A DNA stretch of 64,000 nt from assembly GCF_014199215.1 (NCBI RefSeq), contig NZ_JACIJC010000003.1, forward strand, positions 310,001-374,000, written 5' to 3'. This DNA is from Sphingobium boeckii. GTDB taxonomy: Bacteria > Pseudomonadota > Alphaproteobacteria > Sphingomonadales > Sphingomonadaceae. A program made the position numbers and the translations under genes. Positions within the stretch are counted from its first letter, which is position 1. Each line of letters opens with the position of its first letter. The notes below the pieces were generated by a model. It searched no databases and was not told the DNA's origin. It saw nothing but the letters and a program-made list of their open reading frames with translations. This document shows, in pieces, positions 15,071-49,461 of this stretch.

Positions 15071-15144
15071 CCGTTCGTCCCGAGCGCAGTCGAGGGACGT
15101 GGTGCAGGTGACAGAGGTGTCTCGACTGCGCTCGACACAAACGG
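15071..15144. repeat. Palindromic repeat family 1, copy between Rieske gene and soxB
   Basis: A 74-bp imperfect palindrome with ends CCGTTCGTCCCGAGCG and CGCTCGACACAAACGG. It matches copies at 40785, 43716 and 45153. It fills most of the 105-bp gap between two co-directional genes and could form an mRNA hairpin there. Confidence 0.9.
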
Positions 15145-15164
15145 GATTATTACTGCATTGCCGC

Positions 15165-26628: not shown

Positions 26629-26703
26629 GGAATTGCTCGCAAAAACATTCGGGCTGAGCCCGACCGATCGCCTTTATTGAGCGCGCGATGACAGAACATG
26701 GAT

Positions 26704-26788
26704 CCGTCATTGCGAGAAGCGCAGCGACGCGGCAATCCAAGGAGCGCATAAACCGCTCTGGATTGCTTCGCTACGCTCGCAATGACGG
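26704..26788. repeat. Palindromic repeat family 2, copy 1
   Basis: An 85-bp imperfect palindrome bounded by CCGTCATTGCGAG and CTCGCAATGACGG, with internal GCGGCAATCCA and TGGATTGCTTCGC. A second copy is at 48705-48784. It lies between glnA and the convergent zinc-ribbon gene. Confidence 0.9.
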
Positions 26789-26815
26789 AGGTGAATCGAC
26801 CAAAGTCATCACGCT

Positions 26816-27136
26816 TTAATCGAACATCTCTTCCAGCCAGGATTTGCGCTTCTTGGGATAACGCTGATCCTTATGCCCGCCATGAAAACGATCATCCGAA
26901 TAGTGATCGCGCGCGCCGCCCCATGGGGTTTGCTGCAAGGGCGGCGGCGCGGCCTGAACCGGCGCGGGGTCGGCGGCACCGCTGCGTTCGATGATCTTGT
27001 CCAACTCGCCACGATCCAGCCAGACCCCACGGCATTGCGGGCAATAATCGATCTCGACGCCTTGCCGGTCCGTCATGGCAAGGCCCACCTTGCAGACCGG
27101 ACACAGCATGGCGGAAACGGCTTCGGGGGTGCGCAT
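26816..27136 (-). CDS. TFIIB-type zinc-ribbon protein
   Basis: A 106-residue protein. The first 55 residues are a zf-TFIIB domain with two CxxC knuckles (CPVCKVGLAM and CPQCRGVWLDRGEL). The rest is a Pro-, His- and Lys-rich low-complexity tail ending KKRKSWLEEMFD. The start ATG 27136 has GGAG seven bases upstream. Proteins of this type are widespread, small and of unknown role; nucleic-acid or protein binding is assumed from the fold only. Confidence 0.88.
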   Translation of the reverse strand: MRTPEAVSAMLCPVCKVGLAMTDRQGVEIDYCPQCRGVWLDRGELDKIIERSGAADPAPVQAAPPPLQQTPWGGARDHYSDDRFHGGHKDQRYPKKRKSWLEEMFD

Positions 27137-40769: not shown

Positions 40770-40784
40770 TTGGCATCCCAAATC

Positions 40785-40853
40785 CGTTTATCCCGAGCGC
40801 GGTCGAGAGACGTATGTCGTCACCAACGTCCCTCGACTTCCTCGGGATAAACG
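40785..40853. repeat. Palindromic repeat family 1, diverged copy
   Basis: CGTTTATCCCGAGCGCGGTC and CCTCGGGATAAACG bound a 69-bp imperfect palindrome in the 98-bp gap between two convergent genes, where it may serve as a transcript end. Confidence 0.85.
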
Positions 40854-42524: not shown

Positions 42525-42535
42525 GAAGGATTTTG

Positions 42536-43714
42536 ATGACTGCCCCCAATAGCGCCGCGCCCCTGATGATCGACGGGACGAGCATCCCAACGCTGTGGAA
42601 TGACAGCGTGCAATGGTTATCCGATCACAGCTTCCAGATTCTGATCGCCGCCGCCATCGGCGCTGGCATCTTCTTCGCCTTGCTCGGCATTCGCCGGATC
42701 GGCGTGAAGATGTGCGACAAGGAGGATCTGACCGGCTGGCGCACGATCATCGGCCGCGCCATATCGAAGACGGGCACCATCTTCATGGTGCTGGTCGCTG
42801 CCAAGCTGGTTTCGGGCTATGCGCAATCACCGGCGCTGCTGGCCTCCACGATCAATTTCCTCTTCACCATCACCGCCGTGTTCCAAAGCGCGATCTGGGT
42901 GCGGGAGATTGCACTGGGAATGATCGAGCGTCGCGCCGGCACCGATGCGCATCATGCCGAAGCGCTGGGCAATGCGATGGGTATCATCCGGCTGCTGATC
43001 ACGGTCACCATCTTCGCGATCGCGCTGATCCTGGTGCTGGACAATCTGGGCGTGAATGTCACCGGCCTCGTCGCCGGTCTCGGCATCGGCGGCATTGCGA
43101 TCGGCATGGCGGCCAAGGGCATATTCGATGATCTGTTCGCCGCGCTCTCCATCCTGTTCGACAAGCCCTTCCGCCGCGGCGATGCGATCAAGTGGGACAG
43201 CACATCGGGCACGGTGGAGGCGATCGGGCTGAAGACCACGCGCGTCCGCTCGGTCACGGGCGAGGAGGTGGTGATCTCCAACGCCAATCTGCTCAACAAG
43301 GAATTGCACAATATGGCCCGGCTCCGCCGCCGCCGCCATGTGCTGATGATCGGCGTCACCTATCAGACGCCGCCCGAGGTCTGCGCCGAAATTCCCGCGA
43401 TCATCAAGGAGATCGTGGAGGAACAGGAAAAATGCCAACTCGTCCGCTGCGGAATGACCGCCTTCGGCGGATCGAGCCTGGATTACGAGATTCAGTTCGA
43501 TGTGATGTCCGAAACCTATGAAGTGGTGTTTGCTGCGCGCCACGCGGTATGCGTCGCGATCCTTCAGCGCTTCAACAAGGAAGGCATCGAATTCGCCTAT
43601 CCCACGCAGACGAGCTTCACCGCCGCGCCGGATGGCACGCTGGTGATGCCCTATGCGGATGATCCCGCGCCTCCGCCTGTGAAGACGCCGGCGGCAAAGA
43701 AGAAACTTTCATAA
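42536..43714 (+). CDS. Small-conductance mechanosensitive channel (MscS family)
   Basis: A 392-residue channel. Four hydrophobic segments are followed by the pore-lining helix and beta domain: GLVAGLGIGGIAIGMAAKGI, FAALSILFDKPFRRGDAI, and SNANLLNKELHNMAR. This is longer than E. coli MscS (286) through an extra N-terminal helix and a Lys/Pro tail. It would release solutes on osmotic downshock. ATG 42536 with AGAAGGA upstream. Confidence 0.93.
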   Translation: MTAPNSAAPLMIDGTSIPTLWNDSVQWLSDHSFQILIAAAIGAGIFFALLGIRRIGVKMCDKEDLTGWRTIIGRAISKTGTIFMVLVAAKLVSGYAQSPALLASTINFLFTITAVFQSAIWVREIALGMIERRAGTDAHHAEALGNAMGIIRLLITVTIFAIALILVLDNLGVNVTGLVAGLGIGGIAIGMAAKGIFDDLFAALSILFDKPFRRGDAIKWDSTSGTVEAIGLKTTRVRSVTGEEVVISNANLLNKELHNMARLRRRRHVLMIGVTYQTPPEVCAEIPAIIKEIVEEQEKCQLVRCGMTAFGGSSLDYEIQFDVMSETYEVVFAARHAVCVAILQRFNKEGIEFAYPTQTSFTAAPDGTLVMPYADDPAPPPVKTPAAKKKLS

Positions 43715-43715
43715 G

Positions 43716-43787
43716 CCCGTTTGTCCCGAGCGAAGTCGAGGGACGTTAGGCCACGCACGTGTCTCGACTTCGCTCGACACAAACGGG
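43716..43787. repeat. Palindromic repeat family 1, best-conserved intergenic copy
   Basis: A 72-bp palindrome with ends CCCGTTTGTCCCGAGCG and CGCTCGACACAAACGGG, filling the 89-bp gap between the convergent mscS-like gene and putA. Confidence 0.95.
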
Positions 43788-43803
43788 TGTTGGGCTGCTG
43801 CCC

Positions 43804-46803
43804 TCAAATTCCCACGTCATCCAGTGACAGCAAGGTGGCATTGCCGCCTGCGCTGGTAGTGTCGGTCGATGTCACCCGCTCCGCGCAGAAGCGATAGAGA
43901 TAATGCGGCCCGCCCGCCTTGGGGCCGGTGCCCGAAAGCCCTTCCCCGCCAAAGGGCTGGCTTCCCACGATCGCGCCGATCATGGATCGGTTCACATAAA
44001 GATTGCCCGCGCGCGCCAGTGCCTCCACCGTATCGGCATTGCGCGCGATGCGGCTGTGCAGGCCCATCGTCAGCCCATAGCCCTTGGCGTTGATCGCGGC
44101 GATCGTCGCTTCAAGCTCGCCCGCTTTCCAGGTGCAGACATGCAGGATCGGGCCAAACCATTCCTGTGTCAGTTCGGACAGATCACCCAGCCGGATCGCG
44201 GTGGGCGGCACGAACAAACCCTCCATGGGCACGTCCAGGCTCTTGATCCAATGCGCCTTCCGGCTTTCGCGATAGGTCATGAGCCTGGCGTGCGCTGTCT
44301 CGTCGATCACCGGCCCCACATCGGTGCGCGGATCAGCAGGATCACCCACCACCAGCGCCTCCATTGCCCCGCTCAGCATCTCCAGCGTGCTCTCCGCAAT
44401 CTCCTCCTGCAGCAGCAAGACGCGCAGCGCAGAGCAACGCTGTCCCGCCGAGCGGAAAGCGGATGTGACCACATCCTGCACCACCTGTTCGGGCAGCGCG
44501 GTCGAATCGACGATCATCGCGTTGATCCCGCCGGTCTCTGCGATCAGCGGCACGAGCGGGCGGCTTTCATCCTCCAGCAGGCTGCGCGCGATCCGCCGCG
44601 CGGTCGCGGTCGATCCGGTGAAAGCGACGCCCATGATGCGCGGATCGCCCACGATCGCCGCCCCCACTTCGGGGCCGCCCGGCAGCAGGATCAGCGCGTC
44701 TTCGGGAATACCCGCCTCATGCGCAAGGCCCACCGCCCAGCCCGCGATCGCTGGCGTCTGCGGCGCAGGTTTGGCAACCACGGTGTTGCCAGTGACCAGC
44801 GCCGCGACCGTCTGGCCTAGGAAGATCGCGAGCGGGAAATTCCATGGGGCGATCGTCGCCCACACGCCCTTGCCCTCCATCCGCATCACATTGCGTTCGC
44901 CCGTGGGGCCGGGCAATTCGATCGGCTGCAAGCCCTCGCGCGCACGGGCGGCATAATAGCGGCAGAAATCGACGGCCTCGCGCACTTCGCCCAGCGCGTC
45001 GCTGACGGTCTTCTTGGCTTCATGGACCGCGATCGCCATCAGTTCGGCGCGCTGGTCTTCGAGCAGATCGGCGAGACGATCGAGACAGGCAGCGCGCTCT
45101 TCAACGGGCGTGGCGGACCAAGCCGGAAAGGCGGCATGGGCGCGTCCTATCGCACCGTTTGTGTCGAGCGCAGTCGAGACACGTTCGTCACTGGCACCAC
45201 GTCCCTCGACTTCGCTCGGGACAAACGGTGGTTTGGAAACCCCGCGAACCACATCCGCCAAAATCTCCCGATCCTGCAGATCGATCCCCGCACTGTTGCG
45301 CCGTTCCGGTCCGAACAGGTCGATCGGCAGCGGGATGCTCGGATGGCGCGTGCCGCCCACCTTCGCGATCTTCTCCACCGGGTCCGCCAGCAAGTCCTCA
45401 TCGCTCAGATGTTCGTCTGCAAGCTGATGCACGAAGCTGGAGTTCGCACCATTCTCGAGCAGCCGGCGCACCAGATAGGCGAGCAGATCGCGATGCCCGC
45501 CCACCGGCGCATAGATGCGGCAATGATAACCATCCTCGCGCACAAGCCGCTCGTAAAGCCCCTCGCCCATACCGTGCAGTCGCTGAAATTCGAAATCGCG
45601 CCGCGGTCCGGCCCATTCGAGGATCGTCGCCACGGTGAGCGCATTGTGGCTGGCGAAGGCCGGAAAGATGTTCGGCGCGGCCAGCATGTCCTTGGCGCAG
45701 GCAAGGTAGGAAACGTCGGTCGCGGCCTTGCGCGTGAACAAGGGATAATCGCTCAAGCCCTGCTCCTGCGTGCGCTTGATCTCGCTATCCCAATAAGCGC
45801 CCTTCACCAGACGCACGTTCATGATCCGGCCCAATTCATTGGCCCAGCCGATCACCGGGCGGGCGCGCTTGGAATAGGCCTGCACCGCCATGCCGAAGCC
45901 GTCCCAGCCCTTGAGCGCGGGCAAGGCAGCGATCTTGCCGATGATCTCGAGGCTCATCTCGAGCCGCTCGGATTCCTCGGCGTCCACGGTGAGCGCAATG
46001 CCGTTATGCGCCGCCGACACCGCCAGCGCCTCCAGCATCTCCGTCAGCGCGGAGACCGATCGGTCCCATTGCGCCACTTCATAGCGGGGGTGGAGCGCGG
46101 AGAGCTTCACGGAGATCGAATGGCCCGCCGTGGCGCTTTCGCCCACCTCGGCAATGGCCTGTGCATAGGATTGGAAATAGCGTTCGGCATCGGGAAAGGT
46201 GCGCGCGGCCTCGCCCAGCATGTCGAAACTGGCGGTGAAGCCCTTATGCTCGGGCTTGCGCATCCGCTTGGTCGCTTCGCCGATATTGCGGCCCATCACG
46301 AAGATTTCGCCCATCATCTTCATCGCCGCGCCCACCGCCTGACGCACGAAGGGTTCGCCAGCGCGGGAAATCAGCCGCTTGAGCACGCCTGCGCTGCCGC
46401 TGTCACTGACGAGCGCGCGGCCCACGACCAGACCCCAGGTGGCCGAATTGACCAGCTTGGAATTTGATTTGCCCGCATGAGCGCGCCAATTGGCATCGCC
46501 CAATTTGTCCGCAATCAGAGCGTCGGCGGTTTCGGGATCGGGCACCCGCAGAAAAGCCTCGGCCAGCGAGAGCAGGGCCACGCCCTCAGAGCTGTTCAAC
46601 CGATATTCCTGCAGAAACTGGTTCACCCAGCCATCATTCTGCGCCGCGCGCAGATCCGCGAGCAAACCGCCCGCCCGCGCCATGATGCCGTTCCGCTCGC
46701 CAGGCGCGAGCCGCGCCGACTCAAGAAGGCCTTTCAGCACATCGGGTTCGGGTGCCCGATGCAACGGGCGCATATTGGTGGCAAATGACGTTGCGGAATC
46801 CAT
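43804..46803 (-). CDS. putA: Bifunctional proline dehydrogenase / glutamate-semialdehyde dehydrogenase
   Basis: A 999-residue PutA that converts proline to glutamate in two steps. It lacks the N-terminal ribbon-helix-helix, so it is a non-regulatory PutA. The proline dehydrogenase barrel (about 150-480) shows LTVDAEESERLEMSLEI, VRLVKGAYWDSEIKR and YAPVGGHRDLLAYLVRRLLE. The aldehyde dehydrogenase half has IAETGGINAM, FRSAGQRCSALRVL with the catalytic Cys, and TGSTATAR. Residues about 525-551, between the domains, are encoded by an in-frame palindromic repeat. The start is ATG 46803; the frame to 46941 overlaps the MaoC gene. Confidence 0.95.
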   Translation of the reverse strand: MDSATSFATNMRPLHRAPEPDVLKGLLESARLAPGERNGIMARAGGLLADLRAAQNDGWVNQFLQEYRLNSSEGVALLSLAEAFLRVPDPETADALIADKLGDANWRAHAGKSNSKLVNSATWGLVVGRALVSDSGSAGVLKRLISRAGEPFVRQAVGAAMKMMGEIFVMGRNIGEATKRMRKPEHKGFTASFDMLGEAARTFPDAERYFQSYAQAIAEVGESATAGHSISVKLSALHPRYEVAQWDRSVSALTEMLEALAVSAAHNGIALTVDAEESERLEMSLEIIGKIAALPALKGWDGFGMAVQAYSKRARPVIGWANELGRIMNVRLVKGAYWDSEIKRTQEQGLSDYPLFTRKAATDVSYLACAKDMLAAPNIFPAFASHNALTVATILEWAGPRRDFEFQRLHGMGEGLYERLVREDGYHCRIYAPVGGHRDLLAYLVRRLLENGANSSFVHQLADEHLSDEDLLADPVEKIAKVGGTRHPSIPLPIDLFGPERRNSAGIDLQDREILADVVRGVSKPPFVPSEVEGRGASDERVSTALDTNGAIGRAHAAFPAWSATPVEERAACLDRLADLLEDQRAELMAIAVHEAKKTVSDALGEVREAVDFCRYYAARAREGLQPIELPGPTGERNVMRMEGKGVWATIAPWNFPLAIFLGQTVAALVTGNTVVAKPAPQTPAIAGWAVGLAHEAGIPEDALILLPGGPEVGAAIVGDPRIMGVAFTGSTATARRIARSLLEDESRPLVPLIAETGGINAMIVDSTALPEQVVQDVVTSAFRSAGQRCSALRVLLLQEEIAESTLEMLSGAMEALVVGDPADPRTDVGPVIDETAHARLMTYRESRKAHWIKSLDVPMEGLFVPPTAIRLGDLSELTQEWFGPILHVCTWKAGELEATIAAINAKGYGLTMGLHSRIARNADTVEALARAGNLYVNRSMIGAIVGSQPFGGEGLSGTGPKAGGPHYLYRFCAERVTSTDTTSAGGNATLLSLDDVGI
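45153..45230. repeat. Palindromic repeat family 1 inserted in frame within putA
   Basis: A 78-bp palindrome with ends CACCGTTTGTGTCGAGCG and CGCTCGGGACAAACGGTG lies inside putA. Its length is exactly 26 codons and the frame stays open, adding roughly PPFVPSEVEGRG...STALDTNG to the interdomain linker. The other three copies in the window are intergenic. Confidence 0.95.
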
Positions 46804-46910
46804 CGCTTTTGACTTTCGACTAAGCAAGGCCGTATTTTCCGGACAAGCCGGGCGACATTGCGCAATAAACTGCGCAGCCTTATGCCCAAGAGAGGATCGA
46901 AAGGAAAGCC

Positions 46911-47369
46911 GTGTCGAGCATCTCCGTGCACGAATTTTCAAGGCAGATCGGCAGCGAGATCGGCGTGTCCGATTGGGTGACCATCACCCAGGCCATGATC
47001 GACACTTTTGCGGACGCCACGGGCGATCATCAATTCATCCACGTCGATCCCGAAAGGGCGAAACTCACGCCGTTCGGCGGCACGATTGCACACGGATTTC
47101 TTACGCTTTCATTGATGCCCCAGCTTTCGGAGAAGATGCACGCCCCGGCCATCGAAGGCGTGAAGATGGGCGTGAATTATGGCGGCAATAAAGTCCGCTT
47201 CCTTGCCCCGGTGCGGTCTGGAAAGCGTGTTCGTGGTCGCTTCAAGCTGCTCGATCTGGAGGAAAAAAGGCCGGGCCAGTGGCAGCAGACGATGGAATTC
47301 ACCGTGGAAATCGAGGGAGAGGACAAGCCTGCCGTGATCGCCGAATGGATCAGCCAGTTTTTCATCTAA
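46911..47369 (+). CDS. MaoC family (R)-specific enoyl-CoA hydratase-like protein
   Basis: A 152-residue hot-dog-fold protein. The hydratase-2 motif FADATGDHQFIHVDPERA contains the catalytic Asp and His, followed by GTIAHGFLTLSLMP. GTG 46911 follows AAGGAAAG. PhaJ-type enzymes supply (R)-3-hydroxyacyl-CoA for PHA synthesis; the nearby thiolase and PHA depolymerase fit, but substrate is unproven. It is divergent from putA (107-bp gap). Confidence 0.9.
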   Translation: MSSISVHEFSRQIGSEIGVSDWVTITQAMIDTFADATGDHQFIHVDPERAKLTPFGGTIAHGFLTLSLMPQLSEKMHAPAIEGVKMGVNYGGNKVRFLAPVRSGKRVRGRFKLLDLEEKRPGQWQQTMEFTVEIEGEDKPAVIAEWISQFFI

Positions 47370-47374
47370 CCTGT

Positions 47375-47470
47375 CCCCCTTCCGCTTGCGGGAGGGGCTG
47401 GGGGTGGGCCTGCATCATCCCCATATAAATTCCATTCACACCCCTAACCCCTCCCGCAAGCGGGAGGGGG
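47375..47470. repeat. Palindromic repeat family 5 upstream of thiolase
   Basis: CCCCCTTCCGCTTGCGGGAG and CTCCCGCAAGCGGGAGGGGG flank a 96-bp interval with internal GGGGGTGGG and CACCCCTAACCCC. It ends 18 bp before the thiolase start, just ahead of its AGAAGGAAA ribosome site. Confidence 0.85.
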
Positions 47471-47488
47471 ATTTAGAAGGAAATATCC

Positions 47489-48667
47489 ATGCGTGATGCC
47501 GTCATCGTTTCCACCGCCCGCACCCCCATCGGCCGCGCCTATCGCGGTGCCTTCAACAACACCCCTGCCCCCACGCTCGCCAGCCATGCGATCAAGGCCG
47601 CGGTCGAACGCGCCGGGATCGATCCTGCCGAAGTGGATGACGTCGTCTTCGGTTGCGCGCTGCAGCAGGGGCATCAGGCGGGTAATATCGCGCGGACTTC
47701 GCTGCTGCGGGCCGGGCTGCCGGTGAGCGTGGCCGGCATGTCGGTCGATCGTCAGTGCGCCTCGGGCCTGATGGCGATCGCCACCGCGGCCAAGCAGATC
47801 ATCACGGACAATATGGATGTCACGATCGGCGGTGGCGTCGAATCCATATCGCTGGTGCAGACGCCGCAGATGCGCGTCGCGCCGGATCCCGAACTCATCG
47901 CGATGCACAAGGATGTCTATATGCCGATGCTCGGCACCGCCGAGGTGGTGGCCAAGCGTTATGGGATCAGCCGCGATGCGATGGATGAATATGCGCTCCA
48001 GTCACAGCAGCGCACCGCCGCCGCGCAGGCTGCCGGTTATTACGATAAGGAAATCGTGCCGGTCACCGCGAACATGGCGGTGGTGAACAAGGAAACCAAG
48101 GAGGTCACTTATAAGGACGTGACGATCGCCAAGGATGAGGGCAATCGCCCTGAAACCACGCTGGAGGGGCTGAAGTCGCTGCCGCCGGTGATGGGACCGG
48201 GCATGACGATCACGGCGGGCAACGCCAGCCAATTGTCCGATGGTTCATCCGCCAGCGTGTTGATGGAGGCCCGGCTCGCCGAAAAGCGCGGCCTCTCCCC
48301 GCTCGGCCGTTATGTCGGCATGGCGGTGGCCGGCACCGAGCCGGACGAAATGGGCATCGGCCCGGTGGTCGCCATTCCCAAGCTGCTCAAGAATTTCAAT
48401 CTGAAGATGGACGATATCGGCCTGTGGGAGCTGAATGAAGCGTTTGCGGTGCAAGTGCTCTATTGCCGCGACAAGCTCGGCATCCCCGATGAATTGCTCA
48501 ACGTCAGCGGCGGCGCGATCTCGATCGGCCATCCCTATGGCATGACCGGCGCGCGCGCCACCGGCCACGCGCTGATCGAAGGCAAGCGGCGCGGCGCGAA
48601 ATATGTCGTCGTCACGATGTGCATCGGCGGCGGCATGGGCGCGGCGGGGCTGTTCGAGGTTTTCTGA
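47489..48667 (+). CDS. Acetyl-CoA C-acyltransferase (thiolase)
   Basis: A 392-residue thiolase. Catalytic residues are Cys90 in DRQCASGL, His in [12 protein letters not shown], and the second Cys in [21 protein letters not shown] is intact. The [12 protein letters not shown] and overall pattern resemble degradative (FadA-like) thiolases more than PhaA, though the fatty-acid chain length preference cannot be read. It follows the MaoC gene. Confidence 0.94.
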
Positions 48668-48704
48668 TGTCTTAGTGTGTGATGACTGTGATTGATCCAA
48701 CCCT

Positions 48705-48784
48705 GTCATTGCGAGGGTAGCGAAGCAATCCAGCGCGGTTTATGCCACCTTGGATTGCCGCGTCGCTGCGCTCCTCGCGATGAC
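48705..48784. repeat. Palindromic repeat family 2, copy 2
   Basis: GTCATTGCGAGGGTAGCG and CTCCTCGCGATGAC bound an 80-bp imperfect palindrome with internal GCAATCCA and TGGATTGCCGC, inverted relative to the copy at 26704. It lies downstream of the thiolase. Confidence 0.88.
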
Positions 48785-48892
48785 CGAGCCATGTAATGTC
48801 ATCACGCCCTAAACCTATCCCGCTGGGAGAGGATTTATCGGGAGACTTTTTCCGCCTCGGCCGTTGTTCTTCCAACCCCAAGGGAGAGCATC

Positions 48893-49377: not shown

Positions 49378-49461
49378 CCGTTCGGGCTGAGCCTGTCGAA
49401 GCCTCTTCCTTCTTTCGCATTTGTCAGAAGGAAGAGGCTTCGACAGGCTCAGCCCGAACGG
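49378..49461. repeat. 84-bp hairpin: perfect 35-bp inverted repeat (family 4)
   Basis: The arm beginning CCGTTCGGGCTGAGCCTGTC (49378-49412) is the exact reverse complement of 49427-49461, with a 14-base loop. It sits between the convergent stress-protein and phaZ genes and probably acts as a two-way transcript end. Confidence 0.97.

Follow-up and report, generated by a model that had tools for sequence, protein, structure and literature searches.

How did a multi-copy palindrome come to lie in frame inside a conserved enzyme gene, and is such an event singular or recurrent? The question is raised by a 64,000-nucleotide stretch of the Sphingobium boeckii genome (assembly GCF_014199215.1, contig NZ_JACIJC010000003.1, positions 310,001 to 374,000; hereafter the window), in which a 78-bp palindrome at 45153-45230 lies within putA, the gene for a bifunctional proline dehydrogenase/1-pyrroline-5-carboxylate (P5C) dehydrogenase. 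Here, I show, by comparing the genes of relatives, that insertions recur at the same sites of this and other enzymes, with turnover between repeat families, open frames, a marked frame bias and the presence of half-repeats.

A palindromic doublet in the PutA linker

The features of the window on which the argument turns are the following (REP, repetitive extragenic palindrome; REPIN, REP doublet forming a hairpin; ORF, open reading frame).

43804..46803, minus strand: putA, bifunctional proline dehydrogenase/P5C dehydrogenase, 999 aa from ATG, ORF intact; best PDB relative 3haz
45424..46275, minus strand: proline dehydrogenase domain (Pfam Pro_dh, residues 177-460)
43882..45177, minus strand: aldehyde dehydrogenase (ALDH) domain (Pfam Aldedh, residues 543-974; profile match starts at profile position 26)
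45153..45230, no strand: family-A REP doublet (REPIN-like palindrome), 78 bp, in-frame PutA codons 525-551, peptide PFVPSEVEGRGASDERVSTALDTNGA
45155..45184, plus strand: 30-nt palindrome unit (repeat family D2)
45192..45228, minus strand: second, inverted palindrome unit (inverted repeats I1, I5)
15071..15145, no strand: family-A doublet, sister copy, good two-armed copy
40784..40853, no strand: family-A doublet, sister copy, right arm degenerate
43716..43787, no strand: family-A doublet, sister copy, good two-armed copy starting 2 bases after the stop codon of ORF 42533-43714

The sequence-only reading had described a multi-copy palindrome of 78 bp that sits inside putA, keeps its reading frame and falls into the linker that joins the two enzyme domains, and in this it was right. 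The element has the terminal inverted repeat CACCGTTTGT/ACAAACGGTG plus two inverted units of ~30 nt each; folded as single-stranded DNA it reaches -29.9 kcal/mol (z -6.96), and none of 200 shuffled sequences was equally stable. The same palindrome had been proposed at three further places in the window, two of which (15071 and 43716) carry two-armed copies, but the third (40784) has a degenerate right arm. The genome scan that had been suggested bears out the multi-copy nature of the family: when one mismatch is allowed, the 4.03-Mb genome matches the core CGAGCGNAGTCGAG 142 times in forward and 140 times in reverse orientation, and its reversed control only 1 and 3 times, a copy number exceeding chance and amounting to ~280 units genome-wide. 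A sample of 65 elements consists of 54 doublets, 8 single units and 3 larger elements; 64 of these were taken in contig order among the matches listed, and one, on contig 5, was picked because a protein search had flagged it and is hence frame-biased. The core span of the doublets is regular, at 53-55 nt in 49 of the 54; the commonest values are 54 nt (30 doublets) and 53 nt (14). Family A, as this repeat is called here, is REP/REPIN-like, being made of inverted short palindromic doublets of high copy number spread throughout the genome. Many copies have (A)CGTC at their inner ends, with a stem that is, by eye, unlike the published description of CGTC REPs (CGTC tag, 8-9-bp stem with AT in the first two positions, 4-5-nt loop, CCA tail). 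That layout is met with in family B, found in the PutA gene of locus L084 (CGTC-ATTCCCGC-GAAA-GCGGGAAT-CCA, with an AT-headed 8-bp stem and a 4-nt loop), and with small changes also in a loop of valyl-tRNA synthetase (ValRS) in genomes G018, G035 and G091.

The closest orthologue (L032, same genus) is 86% identical over 999 aa. A clean 26-residue gap at 525-551 had been expected in such an alignment, but the linker of L032, SKLPFTPGKAVAPDVGAAVERA, is just 11 residues shorter. Repeat-free orthologues with the same linker sequence had been named as what would speak against an insertion; the closest insert-free relatives carry other linker sequence. Among 67 linkers in which no repeat was recognised, 56 measure 47-53 residues between fixed anchors and the remainder 55-72, with 60 in the window. 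Because the window linker is far less than 26 residues longer, the repeat appears to have replaced or overwritten older linker sequence, or else an older repeat already sat there. The idea that sphingomonad PutA lost an N-terminal ALDH segment was rejected, since its short form is also that of the solved PutA 3haz; two PutA layouts therefore exist. In an AlphaFold model (mean predicted local distance difference test score, pLDDT, 78.6; 38 sequences), residues 529-544 have pLDDT below 50 and form a coil between helices 512-523 and 548-564, as expected for a flexible linker, though the model is poor in some other parts too.

Unrelated repeats at the same enzyme loops

The PutA set comprised 159 loci, namely the best 80 of 588 named loci, L032, and the 78 nearest of 275 matching genomes (298 genomes of the bacterial family searched), so that nearest relatives are over-represented. 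Of these, 157 could be aligned with the window; a look for frame-breaking cases showed the two lost to be a long-type gene with an open frame (L192) and a contig end (L205). Above 60% identity there were 90 short-type loci including the window (86 after dropping 4 duplicates), and 10 long-type loci, which were excluded. A palindrome lies in the linker of 19 of the 86 distinct short-type genes, in seven or eight sequence kinds. With family names given by eye, six belong to family A, four to the CGTC type and a variant of it, three each to C and F, and one each to D, E and G. The reading of a single insertion must be amended to this extent: the insertion is real, but the linker is a recurrent site common to unrelated repeat families within the bacterial family.

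Fold z-scores of the repeat-bearing linkers range from -2.1 to -9.3, those of repeat-free linkers being mostly ~0. A FastTree phylogeny of PutA computed without the linker requires at least 18 changes of repeat label, and neighbouring species carry unrelated repeats (A in L184 and C in L069; C in L071 and B in L065). One small clade contains G, A and C together with a possible remnant. In L184, what appear to be the first bases of a C-type repeat precede the A-type repeat. The kind of repeat found in PutA is multi-copy in its own genome in 15 of the 19 cases, with pattern counts such as 101/100, 138/129 and 111/112 and reversed controls of 0; C, D, E and G were counted with one merged pattern, and L084 lies outside the pattern coverage. 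The three family-F cases are weak in their own genomes (6/10, 5/9 and 0/4; the PutA copy is itself among the 4 matches of G129). Across the 90 short-type PutA ORFs, the patterns match 48 times in linkers and once elsewhere, duplicates and one or two chance matches included. Five long or odd linkers (L067, L079, L144, L200, L215) were kept out of the repeat count. The linkers of L197, L201 and L209 hold a non-palindromic stretch like FDEADALFGKR..KDAHDRYAN, which weakly resembles AAA ATPases in L209 (Pfam AAA, E = 0.032) and in L197 (E = 0.18) and has no match in L201; it is perhaps a captured gene fragment.

A second enzyme gives the same picture. ValRS was surveyed in 119 genomes, of which 115 matched and 111 had a readable first loop. 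This loop counts 30-33 residues in 83 and 40-78 in 28, the long forms being spread over 26 genera, and no stops occur in it; in three of the four matched genes outside the 111 it is likewise short and open, G043 being the fourth. The 28 long loops contain families A, C, D-like, G, H (AEPVE) and the CGTC type, along with half-repeats (G041, G107, G090), at least six kinds in all, although the labels are rough and 2-3 of the 28 are of unclear kind, G065 and G116 among them. Full doublets, half-repeats, possible remnants and empty sites coexist at this one loop. ValRS is an essential enzyme, and each of the 115 matched genomes has one ValRS match; the insert-bearing enzyme must therefore work. 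At a second site of the same protein, 6 of 97 readable genes have long inserts, and G001 and G103 hold shorter fragments of repeats. In the window genome (L237) this site reads QGEGGVPATGDAAD after WYLELIKPVI, 12 residues beyond the shortest form, which may be an old repeat remnant. The CGTC repeats of G018, G035 and G091 mark a third site, spotted without a survey of it. Outside the first site there are 20 ValRS pattern matches, mostly at the second, 3 at the third, while the rest look like chance.

In a loop of a MiaB-like protein, repeats were found in 7 of 30 aligned proteins, the relatives being the best 29 of 109 matching genomes, a set in which near relatives are again over-represented; the count was taken from the alignment. 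In the window genome itself, five of the 64 family-A elements taken in contig order lie in frame in Pfam-supported genes, namely PutA, ValRS, isoleucyl-tRNA synthetase (IleRS), HrpB and SIR2, a lower bound because genes without a Pfam match cannot show; the element on contig 5 sits in the MiaB-like protein. The Pfam scan took in 29 of the 30 repeat-spanning ORFs of this genome, the antisense ORF over putA being left out. The IleRS of the window genome (L220:6328-9396) carries family A at about residues 506-540 and, in its C-terminal part, the peptide LRHPRESGNDG, which resembles that of a CGTC-type repeat; perhaps two repeat families entered one synthetase.

Frame choice and the origin of the inserts

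All 19 family-A left arms matched in genes are read in one frame, which yields PSEVEG. The bias persists in the 14 independent cases (5 PutA, 6 ValRS, IleRS, HrpB and SIR2), from which duplicates, a pair with an insert inherited in common, a chance match and the contig-5 case were left out; all 14 are in the PSEVEG frame. Of the right arms, 19 of 20 share one frame, the exception lying in a doubtful N-terminal extension of IleRS. Stops do not explain this bias, because all three frames are mostly open: sampled doublets of the window genome gave 106 readings per frame, of which 95, 88 and 81 contain no stop, and from these rates the chance of a one-frame outcome in 14 of 14 is ~0.36^14. The PSEVEG frame gives a mean net charge of 0.4, against 4.5 and 2.1 for the other two, and the fewest cysteines. 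In family C, left arms are in one frame in 6 of 6 cases and right arms in 5 of 6. Selection appears to act on the protein that the insert encodes, and the frame bias, though indirect, is the best evidence that the inserts are translated.

The explanation favoured here, with a probability of about 0.7, is that REP/REPIN-like repeats landed in the putA linker and that a sieve of tolerance keeps the benign in-frame copies, which are translated, eroded and replaced. A palindromic doublet from one of several unrelated families of this bacterial family would have been copied into the linker, as repeats land genome-wide by means of some mover. A copy inside a gene would persist only in a loop that the protein tolerates, and only if its length keeps the frame and no stop arises, the surviving frame giving a benign, near-neutral peptide rich in Pro, Gly, Ser, Thr and Glu. 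Such inserts would be translated as flexible additions of ~20-45 residues, would erode through in-frame deletion to half-repeats and remnants, and would give way to repeats of other families arriving later; the enzyme would keep working, and the peptide would not have to serve any function. That the inserts are translated and neutral, how they were mobilised and that insertion, erosion and replacement follow in this order are those parts of this account that I infer from the pattern.

As to the mover, a profile search for the Y1 transposase (PF01797) gave no match in the window genome, whereby this enzyme is ruled out as its present mover; 4 of the 33 genomes searched have matches, and a control search was positive in 5 of 14 named genomes. 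Repeat families of more than 100 units occur in G000 and other genomes without a detected Y1 transposase. Likewise, a 2013 survey (PMC3733652) reported that CGTC repeats have no dedicated transposase.

Several observations weaken the case for the sieve of tolerance or weigh against it. The fold z-score is above -2 in 8 of the 28 long ValRS loops (own genome -1.0, G031 -0.3, G112 -0.9, the three half-repeats, G065 and G116), z-scores being noisy. The family-F linkers of PutA measure just 53-55 aa, within the upper normal range, and one of them has a z of -2.1. A lone PutA pattern match lies outside the linker, a second CGTC-like core in the PutA of L142, at codon ~876 in the ALDH half. Insert junctions are not clean, and target duplication is not shown. 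The family-A insert shared by L147 and L154, sister species of genus g53, is identical at all 14 of its fourfold sites (0 differences), while elsewhere in the gene 172 of 561 differ, although equal conservation is reached in 38 of 934 other windows; this misfits plain drift, conversion by other copies or a constraint on the palindrome being possible causes. Lastly, the 48 pattern matches in PutA linkers (14.8 kb) amount to a density ~30 times that of flanking DNA with its intergenic parts (26 matches in 248 kb), although the patterns were partly designed from linkers, which inflates it. Given this density, and a ValRS target of few codons, tolerance alone may not explain how often these loops are hit.

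It is on this last point that the strongest rival builds, according to which the loops are true insertion hot spots, favoured by the spreading machinery or by a feature of the transcript, an R-loop or single-stranded DNA. Besides the ~30-fold density, the lengthening of 28 of 111 ValRS genes within a few codons, the clustering of pattern matches at three sites in the ValRS stretches read and the like behaviour of unrelated families fit this idea; yet insertion points inside the PutA linker differ by several codons, no common target motif was found (though without a systematic motif search), and the derivation of patterns from linkers tempers the density itself. Hot spots of this kind are a possible but rather unlikely cause. 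The stronger form of the idea, with the PutA linker, the three ValRS loops and the MiaB-like loop as actively preferred targets that unrelated palindromes reach by a common non-Y1 route, generating protein sequence, is put forward just as tentatively; if true, enzyme loops would be standing generators of new in-frame protein sequence.

The inserts might also be adaptive, being repeatedly recruited as a flexible linker peptide or as an mRNA hairpin that pauses translation between domains. Strong hairpins do lie at the PutA domain border, and the low synonymous divergence of the g53 insert is in keeping with such a role. However, most relatives examined have no recognised insert (67 of 86 PutA, 83 of 111 ValRS), species within one genus often differ, unrelated sequences serve equally, and the first ValRS site is part of the catalytic Pfam domain, away from any domain border, all of which makes an adaptive role of the inserts improbable. 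Less probable still is that they are intron-like or bypassing elements, removed from the RNA or skipped in translation: strong hairpins within conserved genes would suit these, but the inserts are in frame and stop-free, a strong frame preference is needless for skipped DNA, and no Rfam match at gathering score occurs in 43000-47600. Decay of putA, or an artefact of its assembly, neither of which anything was found to favour, is hardly conceivable in view of a full-length ORF with both domains, its identity to the closest relative, and the same insert class in separate assemblies of many species.

These loops amount to a repeated natural experiment, in which one protein loop, empty in most species examined, is filled elsewhere by unrelated repeats. 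The system allows direct tests of how selfish repeats move without a known transposase and how protein sequence originates, as well as of which loops tolerate insertions and how selection chooses reading frames. It also carries a warning, for length variation of conserved enzymes in these bacteria can derive from repeats.

Known repeats and other palindromes of the window

S. alaskensis and E. lithoralis are both sphingomonads. The sphingomonad case had been put forward as a new example of small repeats creating protein sequence; it is not the first, since REPs inside genes of these two species, tRNA synthetase genes among them, were already listed in 2013 (BMC Genomics, PMC3733652). According to the same survey, REP dimers within ORFs encode 20-30 aa, and different REPs lie at about the same recB site in two Xanthomonas species. 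The intragenic GTAG/CGTC REPs described there resemble the present ones in forming in-ORF dimers, in entering tRNA synthetases and, as to the CGTC REPs, in having no dedicated transposase; they differ in that here several unrelated families have refilled the same loops in many genera, other copies of these loops being empty or holding half-repeats, and that a preference for one frame was counted. The words 'puta' and 'proline' are absent from the main text of the survey, whose target genes are listed in its Additional file 3. A recent REP survey (PMC12306157) makes no mention of Sphingo-, intragenic or RAYT (REP-associated tyrosine transposase). No description of recurrent occupation of the same loops by several families was found in a literature search that reached few subscription journals.

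The Rickettsia palindromic elements (RPEs) are palindromic, multi-copy and in frame in conserved enzymes, and in the one tested case, Gmk, the element is translated and the enzyme active with a changed substrate affinity (PMC2229807, PMC10969869, PMC6649704). In-frame, stop-free insertion in conserved genes is common to both systems; RPEs are given as 105-146 bp long and Rickettsia-specific, whereas the repeats described here measure ~75 to 150 bp (by eye), probably have other sequences and occur in other bacteria. A fit to CGTC-1, the group with R. conorii members that PMC3733652 equates with RPE-6, is seen in family B alone. With the REPIN/RAYT system, family A shares the pairing of short palindromic units into inverted doublets and a copy number of about a hundred; there, a Y1 (HUH) tyrosine transposase is associated, in contrast to the PF01797 search of the window genome. 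ERIC (enterobacterial repetitive intergenic consensus) and RU elements of enterobacteria are likewise small mobile repeats read in frame within genes (PMC2229807, PMC2759123), but are 103-168 bp long, and recurrence at the same site is not described for them in the parts of PMC2229807 referred to. Coding palindromes of nematomorph mitochondria are also long inverted repeats in coding sequence, gained and lost between species; being mitochondrial, they are separated from the mobile Rickettsia elements by the authors (PMC6649704).

The window holds other palindromes too. An inverted pair at 26670-26825 and 48665-48820 represents another repeat (CATTGCGAG..GCGACGCGGCAATCCA type, ~140 bp), distinct from family A. 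The palindrome at 49378-49461 (CCGTTCGGGCTGAGCCTGTCGAAG...) is perfect, its 36-bp arms being separated by 12 nt, and resembles family H of ValRS. Finally, a family-C-like palindrome lies between two ORFs at 47374-47471, and the same kind occurs within the PutA genes of L069, L071 and L145.

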